Positions 687-19,728 of a stretch of 64,000 nucleotides of DNA are shown here, in pieces. The stretch spans positions 930,001 to 994,000 of the forward strand of contig CP051232.1 of the NCBI GenBank assembly GCA_017792445.1. The letters run 5' to 3'. The position numbers were made by a program, and so were the translations under genes. Positions within the stretch are counted from its first letter, which is position 1. Every line of letters begins with the position of its first letter. Under the pieces are notes generated by a model. That model made no database searches. It worked only from the letters and a program-made list of their open reading frames with translations, and was not told where the DNA came from. This stretch comes from Maritimibacter sp. (GTDB taxonomy: Bacteria; Pseudomonadota; Alphaproteobacteria; Rhodobacterales; Rhodobacteraceae).

Positions 687-1046
687 TCAGAACTTCAGGC
701 CGCCTTCGCGGGCCGCATCGGCCAGCGCTTTGACCTTGCCGTGGAACAGGAAGCCACCACGGTCGAAGTAACATTCCTCGACACCGGCTTTCTTGGCGCG
801 CTCGGCAATCGCGGAACCCACCTTGGCGGCGGCTTCGACGTTGTTGCGGCCCACGACACCCAGGTCCTTCTCCATCGACGAAGCCGAAGCCAGGGTCACG
901 CCCTGAACGTCGTCGATCAGCTGGACGCTGATGTTCTTGTTCGAACGATGAACCGACAGGCGCACGCGCCCGGCGTTCATCTTGCGAAGCTTGTTCCGGA
1001 CGCGCAGACGGCGCTTCTGGAACAGTTCCCGTTTGGAAAGTGCCAT
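687..1046 (-). CDS. rplR: 50S ribosomal protein L18
   Basis: L18 binds 5S rRNA and joins it to the large subunit. The 119-residue length is normal. The basic N-terminus ([19 protein letters not shown]) and the C-terminal [20 protein letters not shown] block are diagnostic of the family. It lies 11 bp downstream of rplF in the spc cluster and is expected to be co-transcribed with it. Nothing unusual is seen in the protein. Confidence 0.98.
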
Positions 1047-1057
1047 TTATCCGGTCC

Positions 1058-1591
1058 TTACTTCTTCTTACCTTCCTTGCGGAAGATATATTCGTCTTTG
1101 TACTTGATGCCCTTGCCCTTGTAGGGCTCCGGCTTCCGCCACTCGCGGATCTTCGCCGCGACTTCGCCGACACGCTGCTGATCGTTGCCTTCGACAATGA
1201 TCTCGGTCGGCTTCGGCGTGGTGACCGTGATGCCCTCGGGGACATCGAAGTTCACCTCGTGGCTGAGGCCGAGCGACAGTTTCAGGACGTTGCCCTGAGC
1301 CTGCGCACGATAGCCGACGCCGTTGATCTCGAGCTCTTTCTTGAAGCCCTCGGTCACGCCGGTCACCAGGTTCGCGACCTGGGTGCGGGACATCCCCCAC
1401 TGCTGCTTGGCACGCTTGGAGCTGCCGCGCGGAGTGACGGTGACGGTGTTGTCCTCGACCGCGATGTTCACATCATCGGTCGCGGTGAAGCTGCGGGTGC
1501 CTTTCGGTCCCTTCACTTCGACGGTCTGGCCGGACACCTTGGCTTCTACGCCAGAGGGCAGCTCGACCGGTTTTTTCCCAATACGAGACAT
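1058..1591 (-). CDS. rplF: 50S ribosomal protein L6
   Basis: L6 sits near the factor-binding centre of the large subunit. I chose the start giving [12 protein letters not shown] (177 aa). It matches the family N-terminus and is preceded by a strong AAGGAGGGG ribosome-binding site; the frame remains open 22 codons further upstream but overlaps rpsH. The C-terminal [15 protein letters not shown] signature is present, followed by a lysine-rich tail. The gap to rpsH is 10 bp, consistent with one transcript. Confidence 0.98.
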
Positions 1592-1601
1592 CAGCCCCTC
1601 C

Positions 1602-1994
1602 TTAGAAGACCGTGCAAAGCACCTCGCCGCCAACGTTCTGGCTGCGGGCGTTTGCATCCGACATCACGCCTTTCGACGTGGAGACGATCGAGACGCCGAG
1701 ACCCTGACGGACCTGCGGAACGTCCTTGACGCTCATGTAGACCCGGCGACCGGGCTTGGAGACGCGCTTGAGTTCACGAATGACCGGGGTGCCTTCGTAG
1801 TACTTCAGGCTGATTTCGATGGCCGGGTGGCCGTCGACGGTCGTCGTGGGTTCGTAGCCGCGGATGTAACCTTCGTCGGTCAGCACATCCAGGACCCAGG
1901 CACGCAGTTTCGAGGCGGGGGTGACCACGGTGGACTTGCCGCGCAGTTGCGCGTTCCGGATCCGGGTCAGCATATCTCCGAGAGGATCGTTCAT
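1602..1994 (-). CDS. rpsH: 30S ribosomal protein S8
   Basis: S8 is a primary 16S rRNA-binding protein of the platform and, in E. coli, the translational repressor of the spc operon. The protein has 130 residues, a normal length. It starts [16 protein letters not shown] and ends with the conserved [20 protein letters not shown] region that contacts helix 21. It lies 12 bp after rpsN. Whether S8 autoregulates this cluster cannot be seen from sequence alone. Confidence 0.98.
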
Positions 1995-2006
1995 TTCATA
2001 CCCTCC

Positions 2007-2312
2007 TTACCAGCTCGACTTGACCATACCGGGGATCTGCCCGGCGGAGCCCAGTTCACGCAGCATGATCCGCGAAACCTTCAGCTTACGGTAGTAAGCG
2101 TGCGGACGTCCGGTCAGCTGGCAACGGTTGTGAAGACGGGTGGCCGAGCTGTTGCGCGGCAGTTTGGCAAGCTTCAGGGAAGCGCGGAAACGCTCTTCCA
2201 TCGGCTTGGATTCGTCGTTCACGATCTCTTTCAGCGAGGCGCGTTTGGCGGCGTACTTGTCCACCAGCTTCTGGCGCTTCTTCTCGCGTTCGATCATTGC
2301 TTTCTTAGCCAT
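2007..2312 (-). CDS. rpsN: 30S ribosomal protein S14 (zinc-independent form)
   Basis: S14 belongs to the small-subunit head. At 101 aa it is the long form without the paired CxxC zinc motif; only a single Cys is seen, in NRCQLTGRP. The conserved tail [19 protein letters not shown] is intact. It lies 13 bp after rplE and 12 bp before rpsH. The long, zinc-independent version is the usual one in proteobacteria, so nothing is odd here. Confidence 0.98.
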
Positions 2313-2325
2313 GATGTGTCGCTCC

Positions 2326-2886
2326 TTAAGCGGTGAACGGCATGTTGAAGTGCTTCAACAGCGCCTTTGCTTCCGCGTCGTTCGACGCGTTGGTGGTGAT
2401 GATGATGTCCATGCCCCAGACCTCGTCGACCTTGTCGAAGTCGATTTCGGGGAACACGATGTGTTCCTTGAGGCCCATCGCAAAGTTGCCACGGCCGTCG
2501 AACGACGGCTTCACGCCGCGGAAGTCGCGGACGCGCGGCAGCGCGATGGTGATCAGGCGATCCAGGAATTCGTACATCTGGTCACCGCGCAGGGTGACTT
2601 TCGCGCCCAGCGGCATGTCTTCACGAACGCGGAAGCCGGCGATGGACTTCTTGGCGATCGTGGTGACGGCCTTCTGACCGGCGATCTTGGTCAGGTCTTC
2701 CTGAGCCGATTTCGCCTTCTTCGAGTCCTTCACGGCCTCGGCGCCACAGCCGATGTTCAGAACGATCTTCTCCAGCGAGGGGATCTGCATGTCGTTCTTG
2801 TAGCCAAACTCTTCCTTCATCGCGCCACGGATGGTGTCGCGGTAAAGGGTGCGCAGGCGGGGGGTGTAGTTCGCAGCGTCCAGCAT
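2326..2886 (-). CDS. rplE: 50S ribosomal protein L5
   Basis: L5 binds 5S rRNA with L18 and forms an intersubunit bridge. The length is 186 aa. Recognisable segments are [34 protein letters not shown] and the C-terminal [19 protein letters not shown]. The start codon overlaps the rplX stop by one base (TGATG), implying coupled translation. It is a standard member of the spc cluster. Confidence 0.98.
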
Positions 2887-3191
2887 CAGATCACGTCTCC
2901 CGTGGTCTTGGCGAAGCGGACTTTCTTGCCGTCTTCCATCTTGAAGCCGACGCGGGTCGCTTTGCCGTTTGCATCGAGGAAAGCCAGGTTCGACAGGTCG
3001 ATGGGCATCGCCTGCGGACGACGGCCGCCCTGCGTGGTCTGGGTCTGCTTGGTGTGGCGGATCGCGACGTTGATGCCTTCGACCACGGCCTTACCGGCTT
3101 TCGGGTCGACAGAGACGATCTCGCCTTCCTTGCCCTTGTCCTTGCCGGACAGGACGACGACCTTGTCGCCTTTTTTCAGTTTAGCGGCCAT
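2886..3191 (-). CDS. rplX: 50S ribosomal protein L24
   Basis: L24 is an early assembly initiator of the large subunit. The 101-aa protein has the N-terminal KOW motif ([20 protein letters not shown], about residues 6-25) and the [13 protein letters not shown] region. It is separated from rplN by one base and overlaps rplE by one base, so the three genes are probably translated as a coupled block. Confidence 0.98.
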
Positions 3192-3192
3192 C

Positions 3193-3561
3193 TTACAGCA
3201 CCTCCGGGGCGAGCGAGATGATCTTCATGAAGTTCTTGGCACGCAGTTCACGCACAACCGGCCCGAAGATACGGGTACCGACCGGCTCACCTGCGTTGTT
3301 CAGGATCACGGCGGCGTTGCGGTCAAAGCGGATGGCGGTGCCGTCTTCACGACGGACTTCCTTGGCGGTGCGCACGACGACGGCCTTACGGACGTCACCT
3401 TTCTTAACGCGGCCGCGCGGGATGGCTTCCTTCACGGAGACGACGATGATGTCGCCCACCGAAGCGTACTTACGCTTGGAACCACCCAGGACCTTGATGC
3501 ACTGAACTTTCCGGGCACCGGAGTTGTCAGCGACATCCAGATTGGTCTGCATCTGGATCAT
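3193..3561 (-). CDS. rplN: 50S ribosomal protein L14
   Basis: L14 lies at the 30S interface and is the binding site of silencing factor RsfS. The 122-aa length is standard. It begins [20 protein letters not shown], and the family core [17 protein letters not shown] is present. A 74-bp gap separates it from rpsQ; the gap holds a short GGGGGT/ACCCCC inverted repeat but no clear terminator. Confidence 0.98.
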
Positions 3562-3635
3562 TTGGTTTCTCCCGACCTATGGGGGTTGGTCTTGTTCTAC
3601 CCCCCAGGGTTTCGATCAAACCGGATGGTGGGACC

Positions 3636-3866
3636 TTAGGCGGTCACCACCTCCCAGCGTTTCGACTTCGAGACCGGCGGGCATTCTTGAATGCGCACGG
3701 TATCGCCGACCTTGAATTGGTTTTCCGGATCGTGAGCCCGGTACTTCTTGGACTTCCGAACGGTCTTGTGCAGCAGCGGGTGCTTGAAGCGACGCTCGAC
3801 CGAGACGGTGACCGTCTGGTCGTTCTTGTCCGAGGTGACGGTGCCTTGCAGGATACGTTTGGGCAT
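3636..3866 (-). CDS. rpsQ: 30S ribosomal protein S17
   Basis: S17 is a primary 16S rRNA-binding protein with an OB fold. At 76 aa it is at the short end of the family. It begins [20 protein letters not shown] and contains the [15 protein letters not shown] motif typical of S17. It follows rpmC after 4 bp, so translational coupling is likely. Confidence 0.97.
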
Positions 3867-3870
3867 AGTC

Positions 3871-4083
3871 TTACGCCTCCGACGCGGCGGCCGCCGCTTT
3901 TTCGTTCAGGATGGTCTTAACGCGCGCAACGTCGCGCTTCACCGAGCGCATGCGCGCGGTGCTTTCGAGTTGGCCCGAAGCCTGCTGAAAGCGCAGGTTG
4001 AAGGCTTCTTTCTTGAGATCGGACAGCTGATCGCGCAGCTGGTCCGGCGTCTTGTCACGCAGTTCCTTGGCATCAAGTGCCAT
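3871..4083 (-). CDS. rpmC: 50S ribosomal protein L29
   Basis: L29 is a small helical protein at the peptide exit tunnel and part of the docking site for trigger factor and SRP. The 70-aa sequence shows the two-helix pattern, with [20 protein letters not shown] and the arginine-rich [16 protein letters not shown], and ends in an alanine-rich tail. It does not follow rplP directly: a 2OG-oxygenase-like gene and a 277-bp gap lie upstream, so rpmC probably begins a separate transcription unit. Confidence 0.97.
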
Positions 4084-4360
4084 GTCGTCTTCCTTTCAAC
4101 ATCACCGGAGCGCCCCTTGGCCGGGTTACGCTGATTCCGGTGGAGTTCGTGATAGAGCGGCCCCATTACGCCCCGAGGGCGTGTTTGGCAACCCCCTTGG
4201 CGGGGAAAGCGGGTGTTTTGACCAATCTGGCTAAGGCGCAGAGGTCTGGTGCCGTCCGCCCCGCCCCCATGGGGCCGTGCTGCGCTTCGCACGATCACCC
4301 CAGCTTTTGCATCGGGGCGAGATGGTATGCGGGCAATTTCCGGCTTCGTCGGAGCGGCGC
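4084..4360. other. Non-coding gap between the oxygenase gene and rpmC
   Basis: This 277-bp stretch has no convincing gene; open frames on both strands lack family resemblance and good ribosome-binding sites. It holds a candidate minus-strand promoter and several short GC-rich inverted repeats, including CCCCATGGGG near 4265. It is the probable leader of the rpmC-rpsE transcription unit. Confidence 0.55.
4163..4191 (-). promoter_or_regulatory. Candidate promoter for the rpmC-rpsE unit
   Basis: On the minus strand a TTGCCA box (5 of 6 matches to the -35 consensus) is followed after 17 bp by TAATGG, a weak -10 match. The site lies about 80-110 bp upstream of rpmC. A promoter here would make sense because a terminator separates rplP from the downstream genes. 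It is judged by eye only. Confidence 0.35.
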
Positions 4361-4981
4361 TTATTCCCACTTATAGTTGAAGCTCACCGAGATCCGGTCG
4401 TCTTCCGACATATTCATCGGCACCTCGTGACGCAGCCAGCTTTCCCACAGCAGTACGTCGCCAACGGCGGGCTTGACGTAGATGAATGGCTTCAGGTCCT
4501 CGTCCGCGCCCTTCAACCGCGTTGGTGCGGCCATCATCATCGGCAGGCGGGGATCTTCCAGTTTCAGGGCCGACGTCCCTTCGGGCATCGCGACATAGGT
4601 CGTCCCCGAAATCACCGAATGCGGATGTATGTGGCTGGAATGGGTCCCGCCCTCGGGCAGGATGTTGATCCAAAGGTCTTCCAGCACCAGTGCCCTGTCA
4701 CCCAGATCGAAGGCGAGTTTCTCGGCGAAGGCCGCGACATGGGCGTCCAGGCACTTCACCACTTCCGCAAAGATCGGGAACCGCCACGGCAGGTCCGTCA
4801 GCGAGGCATAGGAGGTGTACCCGGGATAGTCGTTCTTCTCGCACCACTCCTGCCCCGCCTCGTCATCCTCGGCGATGGTGTAGCACGACGCCAGCAACTC
4901 GTCCTGGTCGACGGCTCCGCCAAGATCGGACAGGCCGGCCTGGTACAGGCGCGTGGCGAAGAGAGAGCGGATCGTGGACAT
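4361..4981 (-). CDS. 2OG-Fe(II) oxygenase-like protein (TIGR02466/PF13759-type) inside the S10 cluster
   Basis: This resembles the uncharacterised 2-oxoglutarate/Fe(II) oxygenase family with a cupin-like double-stranded beta-helix. I chose the start MSTIRSLFATRLYQAGL (206 aa); the open frame runs 28 codons further up into the terminator hairpin. The family core is visible: a HIHPHSVISGTTYV stretch carrying likely iron ligands, a distal LLWESWLRHEVPMN histidine, and an arginine in DDRISVSFNY suited to binding the 2OG carboxylate. It lies between rplP and rpmC, on the same strand. In E. coli the L16 arginine hydroxylase YcfD belongs to a different (JmjC) branch, so a ribosomal substrate here is only a hypothesis from position. 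Confidence 0.8.
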   Translation of the reverse strand: MSTIRSLFATRLYQAGLSDLGGAVDQDELLASCYTIAEDDEAGQEWCEKNDYPGYTSYASLTDLPWRFPIFAEVVKCLDAHVAAFAEKLAFDLGDRALVLEDLWINILPEGGTHSSHIHPHSVISGTTYVAMPEGTSALKLEDPRLPMMMAAPTRLKGADEDLKPFIYVKPAVGDVLLWESWLRHEVPMNMSEDDRISVSFNYKWE

Positions 4982-5030
4982 TGCGGCCTCATGGGTTCGG
5001 GTTGCGCCGATCCATAGGCGATGCGGCCAC

Positions 5031-5061
5031 AAAAGGAAAAGGGCGGGATTACCCCGCCCTT
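5031..5061 (-). terminator. Terminator after rplP
   Basis: A perfect 9-bp stem (AAGGGCGGG at 5039-5047 with 5053-5061) and 5-nt loop are followed on the minus strand by a T-rich tail (TTCCTTTT). It lies 38 bp beyond the rplP stop, so it should end or attenuate the rplB-rplP transcript before the oxygenase gene. Confidence 0.75.
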
Positions 5062-5072
5062 CCAAGATTTCG

Positions 5073-5099
5073 TAGAATGGGGTTCTACCCCATCCCCGC
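5073..5099 (-). repeat. Dispersed palindromic repeat, copy 1
   Basis: Read on the minus strand, this is GCGGGGATGGGG-TAGA-ACCCCATTCTACG, a 6-bp hairpin. It matches a second copy at 8565-8594 on the opposite strand almost base for base. It begins immediately after the rplP stop codon. Confidence 0.65.
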
Positions 5100-5513
5100 T
5101 TACCAGTCTTCGCGCTGAACGATACGCGACTTGATCGGCAGCTTCATCGCGGCAAGGCGCAAGGCCTCGCGGGCGATCGGCTCCGACACACCGTCGAGTT
5201 CGAACATCACGCGGCCGGGCTTGACCTTGCAGGCCCAGTAATCGACCGAACCCTTACCTTTACCCATCCGGACTTCGGTGGGCTTCGAGGTCACCGGGGT
5301 ATCCGGGAAGATCCGGATCCAGACACGGCCCTGACGCTTCATGTGACGCGTCATGGCACGACGTGCGGCCTCGATCTGGCGGGCGGTGATGCGCTCGGGC
5401 TGGATGGCCTTAAGACCAAACGTGCCGAAGTTCAGGTCGGAACCGCCCTTGGCTTCGCCACGGATCCGGCCCTTGTGCATCTTGCGGAATTTTGTGCGCT
5501 TCGGTTGCAGCAT
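5100..5513 (-). CDS. rplP: 50S ribosomal protein L16
   Basis: L16 organises the A-site region of the large subunit. The 137-aa protein starts [19 protein letters not shown] and contains the universally conserved [13 protein letters not shown] loop near residues 81-93. The arginine at residue 82 of that loop corresponds, with a one-residue offset, to the E. coli L16 arginine hydroxylated by YcfD. It follows rpsC by 12 bp and is the last gene before a terminator and the inserted oxygenase gene. Confidence 0.98.
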
Positions 5514-5525
5514 CTCTCAAACTCC

Positions 5526-6251
5526 TCAGTTGCGACGATCGCGGTCGCGACCACCGCCGGCGCCACGGGGCGCGGGACCTTCCTGGAGCTCCGCCTGACG
5601 ACGATCGCGAGCCGACGGGTCGTGCTCCATGATCTCGCCTTTGAAGATCCAGACCTTGATGCCGATGATGCCATAGGGCGTTTCGGCTTCGACGGTCGCA
5701 TAGTCGATGTCGGCGCGCAGGGTGTGCAGCGGCACACGGCCTTCGCGATACCACTCGGTCCGGGCGATCTCGGCGCCGCCAAGGCGGCCCGCGACGTTGA
5801 CCCGGATGCCCAGGGCACCCATCCGCATCGAGTTCTGCACCGCGCGCTTCATGGCGCGACGGAACGAGACACGACGTTCCAGCTGCTGAGCGATCGAGTC
5901 GGCCACCAGACGGGCGTCCAGCTCGGGCTTGCGAACCTCGACGATGTTGAGGTGCAGCTCGCTGTCGGTCATCTTCGCCAGCTTCTTGCGCAGGGTTTCG
6001 ATATCGGCGCCTTTTTTGCCGATGATCACGCCCGGACGCGCGGTGTGGACGGTCACCCGGCACTTCTTGTGCGGGCGCTCGATGATGACGCGGCTGACGC
6101 CGGCCTGCTTGCATTCCTTCTCGATGAACTCACGGATCGCGACGTCTTCGAGCAGGAGGTTGCCGTAGTCTTTGGTGTCGGCGTACCAGCGGCTGTCCCA
6201 GGTGCGGTTCACCTGCAGACGCATGCCGATCGGATTGACTTTATGACCCAT
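5526..6251 (-). CDS. rpsC: 30S ribosomal protein S3
   Basis: S3 lies at the mRNA entry site and contributes to helicase activity. The 241-aa protein has an N-terminal type-2 KH domain with the GxxG-like loop [16 protein letters not shown] (about residues 74-89) and the C-terminal S3 domain ([20 protein letters not shown]). A charged, glycine-rich tail ([13 protein letters not shown]) follows. Its first base overlaps the rplV stop. Confidence 0.98.
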
Positions 6252-6631
6252 TAGGCTTGCTCCTCAACCTGGCGGACCTTGATGGTAAGCTCCGAGAACG
6301 GCTTGTGGATCTTGCCGAACCGGCCACGTGCCCGCGGACGGCCACGCTTCATGATCAGGTTCTTACCGACCCAGGCTTCGGCGACGATGAGTTCATCGAC
6401 GTCCAGGCCGTGGTTGTTCTCGGCGTTGGCGATCGCGGACTGAAGGCATTTCTTCACGTCCTCGGCGATCCGCTTGCGGCTGAAGGTCAGGTCGTTCAGA
6501 GCCTTGTCGACCTTCTTGCCACGGATCATCGCCGCAACCAGGTTCAGTTTCTGCGGGGAAGTACGCAGCATGCGCAGCTTCGCCATCGCTTCGTTCTCCG
6601 CCACGCGGCGCGGATTCTTTTCCTTACCCAT
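6251..6631 (-). CDS. rplV: 50S ribosomal protein L22
   Basis: L22 lines the nascent-peptide exit tunnel. The 126-aa length is normal. Diagnostic segments are [40 protein letters not shown] and the tunnel-facing [13 protein letters not shown] loop. It is 5 bp from rpsS and overlaps rpsC by one base, in a tight run with rplB, rpsS and rpsC. No macrolide-resistance-type insertion is evident in the loop. Confidence 0.98.
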
Positions 6632-6636
6632 GACGC

Positions 6637-6915
6637 TTACTTCCTCTTGGCTTTCTTGTCGGCCGCGTGACCGTAGTAGGTCCGCGTCGGCGAGTATTCA
6701 CCGAACTTCTGGCCGATCATGTCTTCGGTGACCAGCACGGGAATGTGCTTCTTGCCGTTGTAGACGCCAAAGGTGAGGCCCACGAACTGCGGCAGGATGG
6801 TCGAACGACGCGACCAGATCTTGATGACTTCATTGCGGCTCGATTCACGAGCCTTCTCGGCCTTCTTGAGGACATAAGAGTCGACAAAGGGGCCTTTCCA
6901 AACTGCACGTGCCAT
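6637..6915 (-). CDS. rpsS: 30S ribosomal protein S19
   Basis: S19 forms a dimer-like unit with S13 in the 30S head. The 92-aa protein begins [18 protein letters not shown] and carries the family core [19 protein letters not shown] and the [20 protein letters not shown] stretch. It follows rplB by 3 bp. All features are standard. Confidence 0.98.
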
Positions 6916-6918
6916 GAA

Positions 6919-7761
6919 TTAGCGCCCCTTCTTCCTGGCGTGACGGCTGCGAATGATGAGCTTCGACGACGCCTTCTTGCGGCTGCGGGTCTTCGCACCC
7001 TTGGTCGGCTTGCCCCACGGGGTCACCGGGTGACGACCGCCCGAAGTCCGGCCTTCACCACCGCCGTGGGGGTGATCGATCGGGTTCATGACGACACCGC
7101 GGACGGAGGGACGCTTGCCATAGTGGCGCATCCGGCCCGCTTTACCGAAGTTCTGGTTCGAGTTGTCGGGGTTCGACACGGCACCGACGGTGGCCATGCA
7201 TTCCTGACGGACCATGCGCAGTTCGCCCGAGGACAGGCGGATCTGAGCGTAGCCACCGTCACGGCCGACGAACTGGGCATAGGTGCCCGCGGCGCGCGCG
7301 ATCTGGCCGCCCTTGCCGGGCTTCATCTCGACGTTGTGGACGATGGTACCGATCGGCAGGCCCGAGAACGGCATCGCGTTGCCCGGCTTGATGTCGGCCT
7401 TCGCCGCGGCGATCACCTTGTCGCCGACGCCAAGACGCTGCGGGGCCAGGATGTAGGCCTGCTCGCCATCGGTGTACTGCACCAGCGCGATGAACGCGGT
7501 ACGGTTGGGGTCATATTCGATGCGGACGATCACGCCTTCGACGTCAAACTTGTTCCGTTTGAAGTCGACGATGCGGTAGAGCCGCTTCGCTCCGCCACCA
7601 CGGCGGCGCTGGGTAATACGTCCGGTGTTGTTCCGGCCGCCCTTCTTGGTCAGACCCTCGGTGAGGGACTTGACAGGACGTCCTTTCCACAGCTCCGAAC
7701 GGTCGATCAGCACCAGCCCGCGCTGGCCCGGCGTCGTCGGCTTGTACGACTTGAGTGCCAT
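6919..7761 (-). CDS. rplB: 50S ribosomal protein L2
   Basis: L2 is needed for peptidyl-transferase activity and subunit joining. The 280-aa length is normal. The conserved C-terminal [20 protein letters not shown] segment, with the histidine important for peptide transfer, is intact. It is the first gene of a transcription unit separated from rplW by a terminator, a DUF4174 gene and a second terminator. It therefore needs its own promoter or readthrough. A 130-nt leader with a hairpin precedes it. Confidence 0.98.
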
Positions 7762-7812
7762 GCTTTCTGTCTTCCGTTTAGCAATGCAGACCTTTGCGGC
7801 CCGCTATGTTTG

Positions 7813-7839
7813 GGCGCTTCGTTATGTGGATGAAGCGCC
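7813..7839 (-). other. Leader hairpin upstream of rplB
   Basis: A perfect 8-bp inverted repeat (GGCGCTTC at 7813-7820, GAAGCGCC at 7832-7839) closes an 11-nt loop about 50 nt upstream of the rplB start. It could be a regulatory leader structure for this part of the split S10 operon. No T-tract follows, so it is not a plain terminator. Function is speculative. Confidence 0.4.
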
Positions 7840-7881
7840 GAGGTATAGGGCCCCGAAGGTCCCCGGTTTTCTGTTCTTGCG

Positions 7882-7913
7882 AACAAATACAAAGCCCCGG
7901 ACGAATCCGGGGC
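7882..7913 (-). terminator. Terminator after the DUF4174 gene
   Basis: An 8-bp perfect stem (GCCCCGGA with TCCGGGGC, 7894-7901 and 7906-7913) with a 4-nt loop is followed on the minus strand by TTTGTATTTG. It lies about 80 bp after the DUF4174 stop and would isolate that gene from rplB. Confidence 0.75.
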
Positions 7914-7992
7914 GTTGCGGATGACCCCCTTTAAGGAAAGTGCCCCCGGGGGTCAAGGCCAATGCGGGTGGGCTGCCCTGGCCGGCCGGGCC

Positions 7993-8442
7993 TCAGCCGC
8001 CCGACATCTCGCGGCGGCGCATCGGCATCGCGTCTATCGTGGCGAACAGCGCGTCCGGGCTGACCGGCTCGGCGCTGTTGATTTTCACGCCACCGTCCTT
8101 GCCGACCAACACCATGGCGAAGCCGTCGACCTCCAGCCCCTGCCGGATCGCGCCCTGCTGTTCGGGCGCCGTGTCGGTCAGGACGACAATGTCCCGGTCT
8201 TCCAGCGCCGGGGCCACCGCCTCCAGTTGGTCGCGCGCAGCGGTATAAGTGCCGTCATCTTCGCCCGCGCCGAACAGCAGAACGACCCGCTTGTCCCACC
8301 GGTAGCTGTTCAGATCGGACGCTGCCGGATCAAGGGGGCGGAAGATCTCCGGCCCGCTGGATTGCGCCGAGGCGCCAGAGGCCAGCGTGGCTGCGCCGAG
8401 CGCGATGGCGAGAGGAGTAAGAAGTGTACGGAAGGCGGGCAT
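7993..8442 (-). CDS. Secreted DUF4174-domain protein inside the S10 cluster
   Basis: The 149-aa protein has a clear Sec signal peptide (MPAFRTLLTPLAIALGAATL, then ASGASAQ). Its mature part resembles the thioredoxin-fold-like DUF4174 family: WDKRVVLLFGAGEDDGTYTA and later VLVGKDGGVKI. No CxxC redox motif is present, so thiol redox activity is unlikely. Function is unknown; the location is presumably periplasmic. It sits between rplW and rplB with a hairpin terminator on each side, so it should be expressed independently. A weak promoter-like TTGAAC is visible about 90 bp upstream. Confidence 0.8.
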   Translation of the reverse strand: MPAFRTLLTPLAIALGAATLASGASAQSSGPEIFRPLDPAASDLNSYRWDKRVVLLFGAGEDDGTYTAARDQLEAVAPALEDRDIVVLTDTAPEQQGAIRQGLEVDGFAMVLVGKDGGVKINSAEPVSPDALFATIDAMPMRRREMSGG

Positions 8443-8564
8443 GTTGGTGTCTCCGGGTGTCTGTGTGTCTTGGGTTCCCTTGGTCTACGCATGATGGGCG
8501 GTTTGCGTTCAATCATCTCACGGCGGGTTGAAGATGTGGCGTGTCGGGACTGATCGGTGTTCGC

Positions 8565-8594
8565 GCGGGGGATGGGGTGCAACCCCATCCTACG
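8565..8594 (+). repeat. Dispersed palindromic repeat, copy 2
   Basis: This is GCGGGGGATGGGGT, a short loop, then ACCCCATCCTACG, forming a perfect 9-bp hairpin with a 3-nt loop (8570-8590). It matches the copy at 5073-5099 on the other strand. It lies between rplW and the DUF4174 gene, upstream of the latter. Confidence 0.65.
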
Positions 8595-8651
8595 GGGCAT
8601 CCATCAAGGGCCGGGTTTCCAGGACAAAACCGCCGCCCGGACACAGGAACG

Positions 8652-8683
8652 AAAAAGGGCCCCCGCAGTTGCGAGGGCCCTTT
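8652..8683 (-). terminator. Terminator after rplW
   Basis: A 9-bp AAAGGGCCC/GGGCCCTTT stem (8654-8662 with 8675-8683) has an inner CGC/GCG extension and is followed on the minus strand by a T-tract. It lies 37 bp after the rplW stop and should end the str/rpsJ-rplW transcript. Confidence 0.8.
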
Positions 8684-8720
8684 CTAATCCGTTGGGTGGG
8701 CATTCAGCCCACCGACCGGG

Positions 8721-9014
8721 TCAAAGACCGGTCGACACGTCGATCGTGTTGCCCTCTTCGAGGGTCACGTAGGCTTTCTTGACGTCTTTCCGCTTGCCGG
8801 GACGGCCACGGAAGCGCTTGACCTTGCCTTTGGTGATGGTGGTGTTGACCGCCTTCACCTTGACACCGAACAGGCCTTCGACCGCTTCGCGGATCTGCGG
8901 CTTGGTCGAGGCCATCGCCACTTCGAAGACAACCGCGTTGGCTTCGGAAGCCATGGTCGCTTTCTCGGTGATGATCGGCTTGCGGATCACGTCGTAGAGT
9001 TCTGCTTTGCTCAT
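8721..9014 (-). CDS. rplW: 50S ribosomal protein L23
   Basis: L23 is at the tunnel exit and is the main ribosomal contact of trigger factor and SRP. The 97-aa protein begins [20 protein letters not shown] and carries [25 protein letters not shown] in two recognisable halves. It overlaps rplD by 4 bp. In most bacteria rplB follows directly; here a terminator does. Confidence 0.98.
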
Positions 9015-9628
9015 TTCAGGCGAGCCTCCAGGGCTTCGACACCGGCTTTCGTGATCACCAGGGTGTCACGGCGCAGGATGTCGTACACGTTGGCACCGAC
9101 CGAGGGCAGCACGTCGAGACCGTCGATGTTCGCCGCGGCGCGGGCAAAGCCCTCGTTCACGGTCGCACCATCGATGATCAGCGCGCGCTTCCAGCCCAGC
9201 GACTTGATCTGCTTGGCCAGCGCGGCGGTCTTGCCCTCGGACTCGGCGGAGTCGAGGATGACCAGCGAACCTTCCTTGAGCTTCGCCGACAGCGCGTGCT
9301 TCAGACCCAGCTTGCGGAATTTCTTCGGCAGGTCGTGGGCGTGGCTGCGCGGGGTCGGACCCTTGTAGATACCACCCTTCCGGAAGATCGGCGCGTTGCG
9401 GTCACCGTGGCGAGCGCCGCCGGTGCCTTTCTGGCGGTAGATCTTCTTGGTCGAATAGCTGGTCTCGGACCGGGTCTTGACCTTGTGCGTGCCCTGCTGG
9501 TCACGCGCGCGCTGCCAGCGCACGACGCGGTGCAGGATGTCGGCGCGGGGCTCCAGGCCGAAGATCTCGTCGTCGAGATCCACGGAACCGGCAGCGGCGC
9601 CATCCAGTTTGAGGACGTCGGTCTTCAT
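9011..9628 (-). CDS. rplD: 50S ribosomal protein L4
   Basis: L4 lines the exit tunnel and, in E. coli, represses the S10 operon at transcription and translation. The 205-aa length is normal. The tunnel-loop segment [20 protein letters not shown] is intact, and a [20 protein letters not shown] stretch follows. The gene overlaps rplC and rplW by 4 bp each, implying coupled translation. Whether L4 acts on the rpsJ leader here is unknown. Confidence 0.98.
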
Positions 9629-10497
9629 TTCTCTTCGCCTCCTTCCGAAGCGGCGTCGTCACCACCTTCGGACTTCTCGGCCTCGATCGAGGCTTCGGCT
9701 TCTTTCAGCGCGGCTTCCTCGGCGGCGGCCTGCTCGGCGGCAAGGCGTTCGGCTTCGGCTGCCTCGGCGGCGGCGGCTTCCTCAGCGGCCTGAGCGGCGA
9801 GACGCTCGGCTTCCTCGGCGGCCGACTTCAGCGCGGCCGGATAGATCACGTTTTCGGGCGTCGGCTTCTTCACCGCGTCCTTGATGGTGACCCAGCCACC
9901 CTTGTGGCCCGGCACGGCGCCCTTGACCATGATCAGGCCACGGTCGGCGTCGGTCTTGACGACCTGCAGGTTCTGCGTGGTCACGCGGGCAGCGCCCATG
10001 TGGCCGGCCATCTTCTTGCCTTTGAACACGCGACCCGGGTCCTGACACTGACCGGTCGAGCCGTGCGAACGGTGGCTGATCGACACACCGTGCGAGGCGC
10101 GCAGACCACCGAAGTTGTGGCGTTTCATGGCACCGGCGAAGCCTTTACCGATCGAAGTTCCCGACACGTCGACGAACTGACCTTCGAAGTAATGGTTCGC
10201 GGTGATTTCCTCGCCCACGTTGATCAGGTTCTCGGGGGCAACCCGGAACTCGGCGATCTTCCGCTTCGGTTCGACCTTGGCGGCGGCGAAGACGCCACGC
10301 ATCGGGGCCGAGGTCCGCTTGGCCTTGGCGGTTCCGGCACCAAGCTGAACGGCGCTGTAGCCGTCTTTCTCGACGGTGCGCGTCGCCACGACCTGCAGCT
10401 TGTCCAGCTGCAGAACGGTGACCGGCACCTGCTTGCCGTCTTCCTGGAAGATACGGGTCATCCCGACCTTCTTTGCGATAACTCCAGAGCGCAACAT
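9625..10497 (-). CDS. rplC: 50S ribosomal protein L3 with a long Ala/Glu-rich C-terminal extension
   Basis: L3 is an early assembly protein near the peptidyl-transferase centre. Residues 1 to about 220 are a normal L3, including [20 protein letters not shown] and [18 protein letters not shown]. Residues about 221-290 are an added tail rich in Ala and Glu (with repeated AERLAA segments) that is predicted to be helical or coiled coil and ends in an acidic, glycine-containing stretch. The E. coli protein stops at about 209 residues. The tail stays in frame and ends next to rplD with a 4-bp overlap, so it is not a frameshift artefact. Confidence 0.97.
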
Positions 10498-10512
10498 TGT
10501 CCGTTACCCCCC

Positions 10513-10827
10513 TTAAACCGAGATCTGCACGTCGACGCCGGCAGCCAGGTCGAGCTTCATCAGCGCGTCCACGGTCTGCGGGGTCGGGTCCACGATGTCC
10601 AGAAGGCGCTTGTGAGTACGGATTTCCCACTGGTCGCGCGACTTCTTGTCGACGTGCGGACCGCGCAGAACGGTGAACTTCTCGATCTTGTTCGGCAGCG
10701 GGATCGGCCCGCGCACCTGGGCGCCGGTCCGCTTGGCGGTGTTGACGATTTCCTGCGTGCTGGCATCCAGCACACGGTAATCGAACGCCTTCAGGCGGAT
10801 ACGGATGTTTTGGCTTTGAACTGCCAT
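10513..10827 (-). CDS. rpsJ: 30S ribosomal protein S10
   Basis: S10 (NusE) is a 30S head protein and also a transcription antitermination factor with NusB. The 104-aa protein shows [20 protein letters not shown], the [20 protein letters not shown] loop and the C-terminal [16 protein letters not shown]. It lies 150 bp after tuf and 15 bp before rplC. The intergenic region upstream holds two strong hairpins that may form a leader or attenuator. Confidence 0.98.
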
Positions 10828-10851
10828 TTTCTTTTCCTTTTCAGTTGAGAG

Positions 10852-10874
10852 GAGGGGCGGTTCAGCCGCCCCTC
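10852..10874 (-). other. Hairpin in the rpsJ leader
   Basis: A perfect 9-bp stem (GAGGGGCGG/CCGCCCCTC) with a 5-nt loop lies about 25 nt upstream of the rpsJ start. The following minus-strand bases are CTCTCAACTG rather than a T-run, so it is not a standard terminator. It may be an attenuator or translation-control structure. Confidence 0.5.
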
Positions 10875-10916
10875 TTCGAACCGGTTTCAGCCCGAAGGCC
10901 GGTGGTCCGGGCTTTC

Positions 10917-10936
10917 GGCGACCCCGTGGGGTCGCC
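10917..10936 (-). other. Second hairpin between tuf and rpsJ
   Basis: A perfect 8-bp stem (GGCGACCC/GGGTCGCC) with a 4-nt loop lies about 42 bp after the tuf stop. There is no T-tract. It may stabilise the tuf 3' end or mark a processing site between tuf and rpsJ. Confidence 0.45.
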
Positions 10937-10977
10937 CGCCGCCCGTACGGCGAGTTTGCTCAGGCCTGGGCCGTTGC

Positions 10978-12153
10978 TTACTCGATGATTTCCGACACGA
11001 CGCCGGCGCCGACGGTGCGGCCGCCTTCACGGATGGCGAAGCGCAGGCCGTTTTCCATCGCGATCGGCGCGATCAGTTCAACCGTGAACGACACGTTGTC
11101 GCCCGGCATCACCATCTCGGTGCCGTCGGCCAGGGTCACGGTGCCGGTCACGTCCGTGGTCCGGAAGTAGAACTGCGGACGGTAGTTCGCGAAGAACGGG
11201 GTGTGACGGCCACCTTCCTCTTTGGTGAGGATGTAGGCCTCGGCCTTGAACTTCGTGTGCGGCTTCACCGAACCCGGCTTGCAGAGAACCTGGCCACGCT
11301 CGACGCCTTCACGGTCGATACCGCGCAGCAGCGCGCCGATGTTGTCGCCGGCTTCACCGCGGTCCAGCAGCTTGCGGAACATTTCCACGCCGGTGCAGGT
11401 CGTCTTCTTGGTGTCCTTGATGCCGACGATTTCCAGTTCGTCGCCCACGTTCACCACGCCACGCTCGACACGGCCGGTCACAACGGTGCCGCGGCCCGAG
11501 ATCGAGAACACGTCTTCGATCGGCATCAGGAACGGCTGGTCCACAGCACGCTCGGGGGTCGGGATGTACTCGTCGACGGCGGCGAGAAGTTCCTTGATCT
11601 TCTCTTCACCGATCTCCGGGTTGTCGCCGTTCATGGCGGCCAGAGCCGAACCCGCGATGATCGGAATGTCGTCGCCCGGGAACTCGTACGAGCTCAGCAG
11701 TTCGCGAACTTCCATCTCGACCAGCTCGAGCAGTTCCTCGTCGTCCACCTGGTCGACCTTGTTCAGGAACACGACCAGCGCCGGAACGCCGACCTGACGG
11801 GCCAGCAGGATGTGCTCGCGCGTCTGCGGCATCGGGCCGTCAGCGGCGTTCACAACCAGGATCGCGCCGTCCATCTGGGCGGCACCGGTGATCATGTTCT
11901 TCACGTAGTCGGCGTGGCCGGGGCAGTCGACGTGCGCATAGTGACGGTTCTCGGTCTCGTATTCCACGTGAGCGGTCGAGATCGTGATGCCGCGGGCCTT
12001 CTCTTCCGGCGCGCCGTCAATCTGGTCATACGCACGGAAGTCACCGAAGTACTTCGTGATGGCCGCCGTCAGCGTCGTCTTGCCATGGTCAACGTGGCCA
12101 ATCGTGCCGATGTTGACGTGCGGTTTGTTACGTTCAAACTTTTCCTTAGCCAT
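10978..12153 (-). CDS. tuf: Elongation factor Tu
   Basis: EF-Tu is the GTPase that delivers aminoacyl-tRNA to the ribosome. The 391-aa length is normal for alphaproteobacteria. GTP-binding motifs are intact: [10 protein letters not shown] (about residues 19-28), DCPGHADYV and NKVDQVDD. Domain 2 ([13 protein letters not shown]) and the domain 3 end ([11 protein letters not shown]) are present. It lies 79 bp after fusA, with a compound hairpin repeat between them. A second tuf copy may exist elsewhere but is not in this window. Confidence 0.99.
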
Positions 12154-12175
12154 GGTGGCCTCCTTGTTCTTTTGC

Positions 12176-12227
12176 GGTGCGCATCATCGCGCACCCTACG
12201 GGGTAGGGTGCGTGGTCTCCCACGCAC
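12176..12227. repeat. Compound REP-like element of three overlapping hairpins between fusA and tuf
   Basis: Three palindromes overlap: GGTGCGC/GCGCACC (12176-12195), CGCACCCTA/TAGGGTGCG (12190-12212) and GTGCGTGG/CCACGCAC (12208-12227). Because they share arms, neighbouring hairpins are mutually exclusive. The structure resembles dispersed interspersed-palindrome elements and fills most of the fusA-tuf gap. Confidence 0.65.
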
Positions 12228-12232
12228 CGCAC

Positions 12233-14356
12233 TTAGGCGTACTTCGACTGGATCTCGTCCGAGATGTTCTGCGGCACCGGTTCGTAATGGTCGAACTGCA
12301 TCGTGAACTGCGCGCGGCCCGAGGACATCGAGCGCAGGTTGTTGATGTAGCCGAACATGTTGGCCAGCGGCACGAAGGCGTTGATGGCGATCGCGTTGCC
12401 GCGGTTCTCCTGGCCCTGCACCTGACCCCGGCGGGACGTCAGATCGCCGATGATGTTGCCGGTGTATTCTTCCGGCGTCAGCACCTCGACCTTCATGATC
12501 GGTTCCAGAAGCTTGGCGCCGGCTTTCCGCATCCCTTCGCGCATACCCATGCGGGCCGCGATTTCGAAGGCGAGAACGCTGGAGTCAACGTCGTGGAACT
12601 TACCGTCGACCAGAGCAACCTTGAAGTCGATCACCGGGAAGCCTGCCAGCGGACCGGAGTCCATGACCGACTTGATGCCCTTCTCGACGCCGGGGATGTA
12701 TTCCTTCGGCACCGCACCGCCGACGATGCGCGACTCGAAGGAGTAACCTTCGCCCGGCTCGGTCGGGGTGATGATGAGCTTGACCTCGGCGAACTGACCC
12801 GAACCACCCGACTGTTTCTTGTGGGTGTAGGTGTGCTCGACCTCTTTCGAGATGGTCTCGCGATAGGCCACCTGCGGCGCACCGATGTTCGCCTCGACCT
12901 TGAACTCGCGCTTCAGACGGTCAACCAGGATGTCCAAGTGAAGTTCGCCCATGCCCTTCATGATGGTCTGACCGGACTCGATGTCGGTCTCGACGCGGAA
13001 GGACGGGTCTTCGGCGGCAAGGCGCTGCAGACCCTGGGACATCTTCTCCTGGTCGGCCTTCGTCTTCGGCTCGACCGCGATCTCGATAACCGGATCGGGG
13101 AAGGTCATGGTTTCGAGGACGACCTGCTTCTGGCTGTCGCACAGGGTGTCACCGGTGGTGGTCTCTTTCAGACCGGCCAGCGCGATGATGTCGCCCGCGA
13201 ACGCCTCGTCGATCTCTTCACGGTTGTTCGAGTGCATCATCATCATACGACCGATGCGCTCGCGCTTGCCCTTCGTCGAGTTCGTGATCGAGTCGCCCTT
13301 CTTGAGGACGCCCGAGTAGATCCGGGTGAAGGTCAGCGAGCCGACGAACGGGTCGTTCATGATTTTGAACGCGAGGCCCGAGAAAGGCTCGTCGTCGTTG
13401 GCGTGACGCGCGATGTTACGCTCTTCCGTTTCGTCGTCCGGCGAGAAGCCCATGTACGGCGGAACGTCAAGCGGACCCGGCAGGAAGTCGACAACGGCGT
13501 TCAGCAGCGGCTGGACACCTTTGTTCTTGAAGGCCGAACCACCCAGAACCGGAACGAAGGACAGCGACAGCGTGCCCTTGCGGATCAGTTTCCGCAGGGT
13601 CGGGACGTCGGGCTCTTCGCCTTCCAGGTAGGCTTCCATGGCGTCGTCGTCCTGCTCGACGGCGTTCTCGATCAGGGTCGAGCGCCACTCGTCGGCCAGG
13701 TCTTTCAGTTCGTCACGGATCGGACCGCGCACCCACGAGGCGCCCAGGTCTTCGCCCTTCCAGACCCACTCTTCCATGGTCACGAGGTCGACGATGCCTT
13801 CCAGCTGATCCTCGGCGCCGATCGGGAAGTTCACCGGAACGGGGGTCGCGCCGGTGCGGTCCTTGATCATCTTCACGCAGTTGAAGAAGTCCGCGCCGAT
13901 CTTGTCCATTTTGTTGACGAACACGATGCGCGGAACCTTGTAGCGGTCAGCCTGACGCCACACGGTTTCGGTCTGCGGCTCGACGCCCGCGTTACCGTCC
14001 AGAAGACAGATCGCGCCGTCGAGAACGGCCAGCGAACGCTCCACCTCGATGGTGAAGTCCACGTGGCCGGGGGTGTCGATGATGTTGTAGCGGAACTTGG
14101 TGTCCGAGGTGCCTTCCTCGGTCGGATCTTCCTGCCACTGCCAGAACGTCGTCGTGGCAGCAGAGGTGATCGTGATGCCACGCTCCTGCTCCTGTTCCAT
14201 CCAGTCCATGGTGGCGGCGCCATCGTGAACTTCGCCGATCTTGTGGGACCGGCCGGTGTAGTACAGGATCCGCTCGGTCGTCGTGGTTTTGCCGGCGTCG
14301 ATGTGCGCCATGATACCGAAGTTACGGTAGCGCTCGAGGGGGTAGTCGCGTGCCAT
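12233..14356 (-). CDS. fusA: Elongation factor G
   Basis: EF-G is the translocase GTPase of translation. The 707-aa length is typical. The G1 motif [19 protein letters not shown] (about residues 17-35), [16 protein letters not shown] (G3) and [10 protein letters not shown] (G4) are intact, followed by EF-G domains II to V through [16 protein letters not shown]. It lies 21 bp after rpsG in the str operon. The long antisense frame opposite it is a codon-use artefact. Confidence 0.99.
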
Positions 14357-14377
14357 TGGAGGGCCCTTAGATCTGAA

Positions 14378-14851
<474 letters not shown>

Positions 14852-14861
14852 TCAGATCCTC

Positions 14862-15233
14862 TTATTTCGGCTTCTTGGCGCCGTACTTCGACCGGCGCTG
14901 CTTACGGTCCTTGACGCCCTGGGTATCCAGAACACCGCGGAGGATGTGGTAACGAACGCCCGGAAGGTCTTTCACACGGCCGCCACGGATCAGGACCACC
15001 GAGTGCTCCTGCAGGTTGTGGCTTTCACCCGGGATGTAGCTGATGACCTCGTAACCGTTCGTCAGGCGCACCTTGGCAACCTTACGCATGGCCGAGTTCG
15101 GCTTCTTCGGCGTCGTCGTGTAGACACGCGTGCAGACGCCACGCTTTTGCGGGCAGCTCTCCAAGTGCTGAGACTTGGACCGTTTGACTTTGGGCTGCCG
15201 CGGCTTGCGGATCAGCTGTTGGATCGTTGGCAT
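14862..15233 (-). CDS. rpsL: 30S ribosomal protein S12
   Basis: S12 controls decoding accuracy. The 123-aa protein has both streptomycin-relevant loops in wild-type form: TPKKPNSA, with Lys at residue 43, and [12 protein letters not shown], with Lys at residue 88. Asp89, next to that lysine, is the residue methylthiolated by RimO in E. coli. It is the first gene of the str operon, about 210 nt downstream of a near-consensus promoter. Confidence 0.98.
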
Positions 15234-15549
15234 TCCGGTTTATTCCCCGTGTTGCAACACTTCATGTTCATCTCTGGGGCGCGCGTCCCCGGTTCATCTG
15301 GCGTGCTCCGCGCGTCCGCAAAACACGAAAACCGCCCCCGTCCCCGTTCGCGGGAACGATGCGGTGGGCATTCAGAGGATCGAGGCATATGCCTGGATCG
15401 TGACCACTACAGTTCTGTTAAAGGCAGGAGGCCCCCTGCCCAAGTGCGCGCCGTATAGGGTGAGTCCCGACCCTTGTCAACAGCCCGCCCTCCCGGCGCG
15501 TCAAGCAGAGAGCGTCACCGCCTGTAGGTGGGGAACGACGCCCCTGCTG
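15234..15549. other. Upstream region of the str operon
   Basis: This 316-bp region between the DMT gene and rpsL has no credible gene. It contains the str promoter and a 5' untranslated leader of about 210 nt with an inverted repeat (GCATATGC near 15388) and several short GC-rich palindromes. Plus-strand frames here are shadows without ribosome-binding sites or family resemblance. Confidence 0.65.
15452..15480 (-). promoter_or_regulatory. str operon promoter
   Basis: On the minus strand there is a perfect TTGACA -35 (15475-15480), a 17-bp spacer and TATACG -10 (15452-15457). This is the best promoter match seen in the window and lies directly upstream of rpsL. It should drive at least rpsL to rplW. 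Confidence 0.8.
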
Positions 15550-16455
15550 TCAACGGATGCGGAGCGCTTTCGGAGTGGATCGGCTGAGGTTTCTTTCCCG
15601 GTAAAACGTGTAGACCCCCGTCGCAACCACGATCGCCGCGCCCAGCAACGTTAGCCGGTCCGGCCAGTCGCCAAAGACGACGAACCCCAGCAGCAGGGCC
15701 CAAAGCAGGCTGGTGTACCGAAACGGCGCGATCACCGCGACCTCGCCCACCCGCATCGCCGAGACAGAGAACACATAGCCCCCGATCAGCAGAACCGAGG
15801 CCATGCCCATCTGCATCGCCGCCAGCCCGGAAACCGGCTGCCACTCTATGAAGATCGAGCCGATGCCGAAGAAGATCATGACCGCGACCGCGTTGAAGAA
15901 GGCGACCGTCATCGACGGCACGTCGGACGATAGCTGGCGGGACAGAAGATCCCGCACGGTCACAAGAGCCACGGCGATCAGCGCGTAGATCGAGTAGAAG
16001 TTGAACCCTTCGCCCCCCGGCCGCACGATCAGCATCACCCCCGCGAAGCCGACGAGGATCGCGCTGATCCGGCGCCAGCCGACGGTCTCTCCCAGAAACA
16101 GTGCGCCCGCCAGCGTGACCGACAGCGGCATCGCCTGCAGGATCGCGGTCGCGTTGGCGATGGGCATGTTGAAGAAGGCCGAAACGAAGAAATAGGCCGC
16201 GCCGATCTCGGTCACGTTCCGGATCGCGATGAGCGTCCAGTCACGGCGCGAGAAGTTGAAGCGCAGGCCACCCAGCGCGCGGGCCAAAAGGTACATCCAG
16301 ACCGAGGTGGCGATCCCGCGCAGGAACACCGCCTGAAACATAGGCAACTCGTCCGACAGCGCCTTCATCGCGGTGTCGTTCATGGTGAAGCAGGCCATGG
16401 AGCCCGCCATGAGGGCCGCGCCGCGCAGGTTGTCGGAATTGGATGACGTCGTCAT
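15550..16455 (-). CDS. DMT-superfamily (EamA) transporter
   Basis: A 301-aa inner-membrane protein with about ten hydrophobic helices, arranged as two EamA repeats. The N-terminal half opens with GAALMAGSMACFTMNDTAMK, and the second half ends with a helix in TLLGAAIVVATGVYTFYRER. Family members export or import metabolites such as amino acids, nucleosides or drugs; the substrate cannot be read here. It lies upstream of the str promoter on the same strand and is not part of the ribosomal operon. Confidence 0.85.
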   Translation of the reverse strand: MTTSSNSDNLRGAALMAGSMACFTMNDTAMKALSDELPMFQAVFLRGIATSVWMYLLARALGGLRFNFSRRDWTLIAIRNVTEIGAAYFFVSAFFNMPIANATAILQAMPLSVTLAGALFLGETVGWRRISAILVGFAGVMLIVRPGGEGFNFYSIYALIAVALVTVRDLLSRQLSSDVPSMTVAFFNAVAVMIFFGIGSIFIEWQPVSGLAAMQMGMASVLLIGGYVFSVSAMRVGEVAVIAPFRYTSLLWALLLGFVVFGDWPDRLTLLGAAIVVATGVYTFYRERNLSRSTPKALRIR

Positions 16456-16578
16456 GCTTCGGCAGCTATCAGCGAAACCCGGGCCGCGCCAGAGCCGAAG
16501 TGCGCGGGGCGAGACACGGGCCTTGAGAAGTGCGTGCGGCGCAGGAATTCCCGGAACGTCCTGCCCGTAAGCGCGACT

Positions 16579-17388
16579 TCAATCGATGTGTTTGAACGCC
16601 CCAAGCTTGCGGCCGAAGTTCTCGCGCAGGATCGCGTCGATTTCCTTGTTCGGCAGTTGCAGCTTCTCGCCCGTCCGATGCGGGTTTGCCTTATTGTCCT
16701 GATGGATCGTGCGGACATAGGCATAGTGCTGGGTGTCCGACCATGCGTTGAAGAACTGCGGCAACTGCCGGTGGTCCACCTTGTAGATATTGTCGCGCCA
16801 GCTGACCGGCGCGATCAGCGCCGCCCCCACGCTGATCGGCGTGCGTTCGCACGTGGGGTAGACGATCGTCTTGTCGTCCCGCCGCTCAAGATAGAAACCA
16901 AGGTTGTGGGCGATAGCGGTCGGGTTGTCGATACCGCCCACAGCCGCCGCCTTGGGCGCGATGTCCTTAAGCCGCGCGATGAAGCCGTTGTCCAGCGCAT
17001 CGTCGTCGTCGAACCGGAAGGTGGTGCGGTGCGTGAACCCCTCTGACGGGATCTCGGCAAAGGCGGCGCGGATACCGGCGTAGTGATGCTGCGGCTCGGC
17101 CTCGATGATGCGGATCGCCGGGACTCTGGCGCACATCTCCTTCAGTCGGTCCTTCCACGCGGCGGGCATGTTCGCACCGACCAGCAGGATGCAGGTAAAG
17201 TCCGGGTCGGTCTGTTGCGCCAGCGACGGCAGGCAGTAGACCTCGAACAGCCGGAACCGCCGCTCCAGACGTTCCGGGTCGAACAGGAAGGCTTCCATGT
17301 CCTCGATCGTCTCGAAGCCCGGATAGAAATTCCCGATCGTCGCGAAGGAAAACCGGATCAGCCCGATCACCTGGTTTCGGATGTCCAT
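16579..17388 (-). CDS. Putative rhamnosyltransferase-like glycosyltransferase (PF11316 type)
   Basis: A 269-aa cytoplasmic protein resembling the putative rhamnosyl-transferase family. It has an acidic nucleotide-sugar/metal motif FRFDDDDALD (about residues 125-133), which fits a DxD-type GT-A fold, and a FSFATIGNFYPGFETIEDM start. The acceptor is unknown. A second, unrelated glycosyltransferase is divergently oriented 136 bp away, so the two may decorate the same glycan. No polysaccharide locus surrounds them. Confidence 0.75.
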   Translation of the reverse strand: MDIRNQVIGLIRFSFATIGNFYPGFETIEDMEAFLFDPERLERRFRLFEVYCLPSLAQQTDPDFTCILLVGANMPAAWKDRLKEMCARVPAIRIIEAEPQHHYAGIRAAFAEIPSEGFTHRTTFRFDDDDALDNGFIARLKDIAPKAAAVGGIDNPTAIAHNLGFYLERRDDKTIVYPTCERTPISVGAALIAPVSWRDNIYKVDHRQLPQFFNAWSDTQHYAYVRTIHQDNKANPHRTGEKLQLPNKEIDAILRENFGRKLGAFKHID

Positions 17389-17524
17389 ATGCGCCTGCCG
17401 TTACCGCCCCGGCGCGGACAGTGGCAGCCGCGCCGCGCCCGGTCAACCTTGGGTGGGGCGCTAGGTTTACGTGGCGCGCCGGGCGGGTATACCTGCGACA
17501 GGGAACCGGCAGGGATTAGGTGTC

Positions 17525-18526: not shown

Positions 18527-18541
18527 GCGGCGCGTGTTGGT

Positions 18542-19627: not shown

Positions 19628-19728
19628 CGGGCGTACCCCTTGGTTCGGTGGACCTGTTGCGCGCGGCTATAGGAGGTCAGCCGCAACGGCGCAAGCGACC
19701 TGCCCTCACCGAATTTTCCCCGCCGAAA

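Follow-up and report, generated by a model that had tools for sequence, protein, structure and literature searches.

The presence of a small oxygenase-like gene between rplP and rpmC in Rhodobacteraceae genomes co-varies with ribosomal protein L16 (uL16), the product of rplP, much more strongly than with any of 11 other proteins encoded in the same ribosomal protein cluster. This is a new result; our literature search found no recognisable paper tying a TIGR02466/PF13759 oxygenase to L16 or to the ribosomal cluster. We consider a functional tie between the oxygenase and L16 to be somewhat more probable than its absence, and hydroxylation of L16 would most likely be the form of this tie. The gene was identified in a stretch of 64,000 nucleotides of Maritimibacter sp. 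(contig CP051232.1, positions 930,001 to 994,000), referred to below as the window, from a 4.68-Mb genome assembled as a single contig.

The oxygenase gene was confirmed to be real and to lie between rplP and rpmC, as the earlier note had described; it encodes a single-domain protein. The open reading frame starts with ATG, occupies positions 4361..4981 (-) of the window and encodes 206 amino acids. The product matched TIGR02466 along its full length (residues 5-205, 280.7 bits, cut-off 62.5) and PF13759 as its sole Pfam domain (120.6 bits, cut-off 27), in agreement with the family proposed previously. Both rplP (5100..5513, PF00252) and rpmC, which encodes L29 and served as a linkage control (3871..4083, PF00831), lie on the same (-) strand as the oxygenase gene, at distances of 118 bp and 277 bp, respectively. 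The Rho-independent terminator noticed earlier between rplP and the oxygenase gene was found at 5037..5063 (-) as a 12-pair stem followed by a T-rich tail, and the 80-nt stretch around it folds with -42 kcal/mol (z -4.8 against shuffles). Outside the window, the same genome has another, distantly related PF13759 gene (G000:C1:3693605-3694168); its product is 27% identical to the oxygenase and has the same HxH...H motif.

The distribution of the gene was surveyed in 149 family genomes, each representing a different genus, by joining tables for the oxygenase, rplP and rpmC and by counting matches above 80 bits as orthologues. An orthologue was present in 90/149 genomes; in a larger draw, matches at E 1e-30 or better were found in 166/265 genomes. 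The gene was located between rplP and rpmC on one contig in 67/90 carriers, and beside rplP, rpmC or both in another 19/90, where the cluster is broken or rearranged or the contig ends. Only two carriers (G089 and G132) had it elsewhere while rplP and rpmC were contiguous, and in the remaining two its location was uninformative. The gap between rplP and rpmC in the 67 linked carriers had a median of 2366 bp (945-19681), and among gene-less genomes with a contiguous gap it was 320 bp or less in 34/41. In G128 (contig C1), about 249 kb separate rplP from rpmC on the same contig, and the oxygenase gene stays with rplP; in G045 (contig C1) the distance is about 206 kb, again within one contig, and the gene stays with rpmC. 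One in-frame TAG was seen in the orthologue match of G043:C6:55685-56299 and in that of G022:C329:3776-4390, which may reflect disruption of the gene, a boundary effect or an error in sequencing.

The gene has the same direction as rplP in 42/67 linked carriers. In a ribosomal protein tree of 100 rows, its presence required at least 12 changes and its orientation at least 15. A gene that flips this frequently, and that is separated from rplP by a terminator, is not linked to rplP by co-transcription, and the doubt about co-transcription raised in the earlier note proved justified. Co-transcription is not maintained and the arrangement is not fixed either, so that the place of the gene by itself could be inherited passively.

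The interval between rplP and rpmC is otherwise a site of unrelated cargo. In 169 loci with both flanks, 451 open reading frames fell into 252 clusters, of which 212 occurred in a single locus only. Together with two clusters that we interpret as out-of-frame ORFs overlapping it, the oxygenase covered 126/169 loci; no other cluster was found in more than 5 loci, which leaves the oxygenase as the sole conserved gene between rplP and rpmC. Of the twelve cluster junctions, just two opened beyond 350 bp, rplP/rpmC in 71/118 genomes and rplW/rplB in 44/111, while the remaining ten never did so in 117-120 genomes. At the rplW/rplB junction, the window contains a gene of the DUF4174 family (7993-8442, 81 bits). 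As this gene was present there in 1/111 genomes only, it was dropped as a control trait, and the open or closed state of the rplW/rplB gap was used instead. The part of PMC3305630 available to us describes insertions in conserved operons as common in roseobacters, and reports that the rpmD-rplO gap is variable in a similar way in Ruegeria pomeroyi and relatives.

These observations suit an explanation in which the rplP-rpmC junction is merely permissive and the gene, useful for something non-ribosomal, such as a small molecule or another protein, has inherited its place. The single-locus cargo, the second open junction with its DUF4174 gene, the insertions known in roseobacters, the changes of orientation and the two carriers with the gene elsewhere all speak in its favor. 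Moreover, linkage to rplP, whose conservation the earlier note had proposed to check, holds across the family but was not seen beyond it: none of the 20 top-scoring orthologues found elsewhere (41-66% identity) had rplP, rpmC or rpsC nearby, in flanks of about 8 kb per side or up to the contig end. Passive inheritance of this kind is a serious possibility, although we give it clearly less than an even chance; it does not predict an amino-acid co-variation that is specific to L16.

We tested 12 ribosomal proteins, all of this one cluster, for residues that follow the presence of the gene. The first tree comprised 100 rows: 57/90 carriers, G170 and G399 (family genomes from the class draw), and 41 rows drawn from the 48 genomes that lack the gene but have rplP or rpmC; row L251, filled to 27%, was dropped. 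A replication set consisted of 60 genomes not used before, 59 of them of new genera (G439 belongs to the window's genus), and comprised 43 genomes with the gene and 17 without it. These were taken from the best-scoring rplP rows (43/77 carriers and 17/30 gene-less), with low-scoring L16s left out, and the replication test for residues 18 and 25 was fixed in writing before the new genomes were examined. A 120-row set combined the first 100 rows with 20 of the 60 replication genomes and thus overlaps with the replication set in these 20. Genomes were classed as gene-less from search results; G136 (row L204) contains a 20-residue fragment of an orthologue (75%) and may carry the gene unlinked, and G483 (row L272), scored as gene-less, is 64% complete.

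L16 was already the outlier among the 12 proteins in the first 100 rows. In 1705 residue tests on the 120-row tree, the best three residues were L16 residues 18, 79 and 25, and the leading co-varying residues of L16 were 18, 25, 79, 95 and 112. Histidine at position 18 (codon at 5460..5462 (-), Arg in the window genome) was found in 45/58 gene-less genomes versus 18/62 carriers, and serine at position 25 (codon at 5439..5441 (-), Ser in the window genome) in 57/62 carriers versus 17/58 gene-less genomes. Residue 18 scored 7.8 to 0 in 14 independent pairs. At the level of genes, the residue-pair test gave P 0.0008 for L16 and at least 0.17 for every other protein. A likelihood-ratio test of correlated evolution (670 columns) gave a mean of 8.31 for L16 (P 0.0001), and the lowest P of any other protein was 0.11. 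In phylogenetic regression, L16 reached z 8.34, with 0/3000 traits simulated on the same tree as extreme, and the other proteins at most 1.99. The z of L16 was 7.7 in the subset of 111 rows that have both rplW and rplB. It was 8.85 when rplP and rpmC were left out of the tree (next rpsC, 3.09), and 8.35 after the removal of the two doubtful gene-less rows, G136 and G483 (next rpsC, 2.35).

The replication set showed the same bias, with Ser25 in 43/43 carriers versus 7/17 gene-less genomes and His18 in 10/43 versus 11/17. In these genomes alone L16 had z 3.8 to 4.8 and rpsC 0.4 to 0.6, a comparison of two proteins only, made by regression and not by the pair statistic; starred-branch independent pairs amounted to just 2 usable pairs.

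The other residue of the best three, 79, is Thr in the window genome, which is the commoner residue of gene-less genomes. It lies three positions before Arg82 (codons 79 to 82, 5268..5279 (-)), the arginine that matches E. coli Arg81 by the VRMGKGKG motif. In E. coli, Arg81 of L16 is the site of YcfD, according to the portion of PMC4295552 that we consulted. The earlier note had pointed to the VRMGKGKG loop, and the loop is indeed kept; as an argument for the oxygenase it fails, because it is invariant whether or not the oxygenase is there (99/100 family rows). The fitted rates, although rough, suggest that gene loss occurred mainly in lineages with His18 or Thr79.

Homologous recombination that gains or loses the gene could also swap the adjoining rplP allele, and a mark on L16 would then reflect mere linkage. 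For this explanation, rplP is the nearest upstream gene, and the state of the rplP/rpmC gap alone (2 rows missing) gave z 4.4 for rplP, 3.1 for rpsQ, 2.4 for rpsC and 2.3 for rpmC; residues of rpsQ and rpmC also ranked high in one residue test. However, rpmC, which adjoins the gene equally, stayed near background with gene presence (z 1.8-2.0; likelihood-ratio mean 4.85, P 0.98), and rplP was marked less by gap state than by gene presence (8.4). The strongest site, codon 18, is located in rplP at the opposite end from the insertion. At synonymous sites, which may be saturated, rplP came first without being set apart (rplP 3.07, rpsC 2.86, rplB 2.60); its narrow lead is what linkage would leave, but there is no clear excess in rplP only. 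The second insertion site was negative as well: the open or closed state of the rplW/rplB gap (9 rows missing) left the neighbour rplB unmarked (z 1.65). Among genomes with an open rplP/rpmC gap alone (58 with the gene and 13 without it), L16 was still first (z 2.76, P 0.013). Taken together, rpmC, the synonymous sites and the second insertion site argue against mere linkage, which we regard as improbable.

Carriers in which the gene is away from rplP gave a divided answer. All four truly unlinked carriers had Ser25 and a positive L16 score, contrary to linkage, but His18 was present in 2/4 and Thr79 in 3/4 of them, as linkage would allow. In these carriers most of the other proteins lean the same way as L16, and a positive L16 score also occurs in 14/58 gene-less rows. 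A prediction fixed in writing beforehand, that five carriers whose gene lies on another contig would be devoid of His18, failed: 3/5 have it, and Ser25 was present in 5/5. Additionally, a correlation of evolutionary rates (n 57) placed the oxygenase no closer to L16 (partial r 0.16, P 0.015) than to L22 (0.24) or L14 (0.23). The earlier note's proposal of an independent ribosomal oxygenase at L16 thus gained the co-variation as evidence beyond position, but within the family only: outside it, where the residues of L16 do not follow the gene, Ser25 was found in 0/12 carriers tested, and four contrasts, each made within a family, showed no consistent shift of L16 residues. Two non-carriers in this test, G334 and G199, hold weaker TIGR02466 relatives.

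The best overall explanation, which we put forward tentatively and at somewhat under an even chance, is that the oxygenase is coupled to L16 and probably acts on it or on a partner of L16. The gene would have arrived early in the history of the family, presumably once, in the gap that separates the two halves of the ribosomal protein cluster, and would mostly have stayed there. Its product would most likely hydroxylate an L16 residue, or else a protein or RNA partner in contact with L16, while the large subunit is being assembled or earlier; in E. coli this task falls to the unrelated YcfD. Gene-less genomes are mostly of one L16 type (His18, Thr79), as if the state of L16 decided whether the enzyme is dispensable. 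Both the role of L16 as the substrate and the position of a modified residue are conjectural here. The oxygenase is unrelated to YcfD and probably ribosomal. The more specific proposal, of a second, independently evolved bacterial ribosomal oxygenase of the PF13759 family, with a three-histidine iron site, encoded in the cluster, acting on uL16 in Rhodobacteraceae and dispensable mainly with His18 and Thr79, is a speculative one that we hold to be rather less likely than the coupling as such.

The absence of YcfD, suggested earlier as a check, adds little. The window genome has no JmjC_2 (PF08007) match, and only 4/149 family genomes have one over the cut-off. As few genomes of the family have a YcfD-type domain in any case, its absence is no strong complementarity, and 3/4 of the positive genomes (G011, G126 and G144) carry the oxygenase.

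The structure model of the oxygenase (pLDDT 91.6) is predicted to have the double-stranded beta-helix fold of Fe(II)/2-oxoglutarate oxygenases, with Foldseek matches to 2OG oxygenases at E about 1e-6, and two solved orthologues, 3bvc and 2rg4, ranked at the top (TM 0.96). They were followed by a Burkholderia protein, the prolyl hydroxylase of P. putida (one entry with EF-Tu) and others, including PHD2. The matches to the P. putida enzyme and PHD2 had TM about 0.5-0.6 and 9-15% identity, and the model thus points to a prolyl-hydroxylase-like group. The 2-His-1-carboxylate motif of known 2OG hydroxylases, HxD/E...H, is replaced by HxH...H (H117, H119 and H185), and R196 lies 11 residues after H185, near the distance of about 10 residues past the distal His typical of an Arg/Lys that we take to be a 2OG residue. 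H117, H119, H185 and R196 were invariant in 29/29 aligned rows. As judged by sequence, the metal ligands would be three histidines, and the enzyme is expected to use iron and 2-oxoglutarate. An engineered three-histidine site in human prolyl 4-hydroxylase (Asp414 to His) had no detectable activity, as reported in the section of PMC2767507 seen. Both this result and the departure from HxD/E weigh against the preferred explanation. A role of the oxygenase in hydroxylating prolines of some other protein of translation, e.g., EF-Tu or uS12, with L16 co-varying only indirectly, would fit the tuf gene in the same window, the P. putida and PHD2 folds and the action of OGFOD1 on uS12 (PMC4396695, in extract), but it is very unlikely, since matches at 9-15% identity do not define substrates and the HxH metal motif differs.

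The co-variation provides a concrete, testable partner for a family whose two solved structures have so far had no explanation. If the preferred explanation is true, hydroxylation of the ribosome at L16 evolved on at least two occasions, in enzymes of unrelated origin, and a relative of prolyl hydroxylases with three histidines would be a protein hydroxylase, against the expectation from the engineered prolyl 4-hydroxylase.

The closest known relatives are the solved orthologues themselves, 3bvc (Roseovarius nubinhibens ISM_01780) and 2rg4 (Oceanicola granulosus), at phmmer E about 1e-108; both entries are titled uncharacterized, and in both species the orthologue likewise lies in the rplP-rpmC interval (L066 and L103). 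More distant are the 2OG-Fe(II) oxygenases of cyanophages and pelagiphages (PHROG 81, 108 bits), which are encoded in phage genomes and are 27-29% identical to the oxygenase; the three compared have the same HxH...H and Arg. In one pelagiphage, a PF13759 relative (L344:211-798) is located between genes annotated as putative UvsY and UvsW. The Pseudomonas prolyl hydroxylase of EF-Tu (4iw3, 4j25) and PHD2 share a similar fold but differ in the metal motif. With YcfD (RoxA), the JmjC-type ribosomal oxygenase of L16 Arg81, the oxygenase would share both its proposed partner, L16, and its proposed chemistry, but it belongs to a different family, lacks a match to the JmjC_2 domain (PF08007) of YcfD/NO66/MINA53-type ribosomal oxygenases, and has HxH where YcfD has HxD. 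In contrast to YcfD, to which the consulted part of PMC4295552 ascribes added dimerisation and winged-helix domains, the oxygenase is a protein of 206 amino acids.
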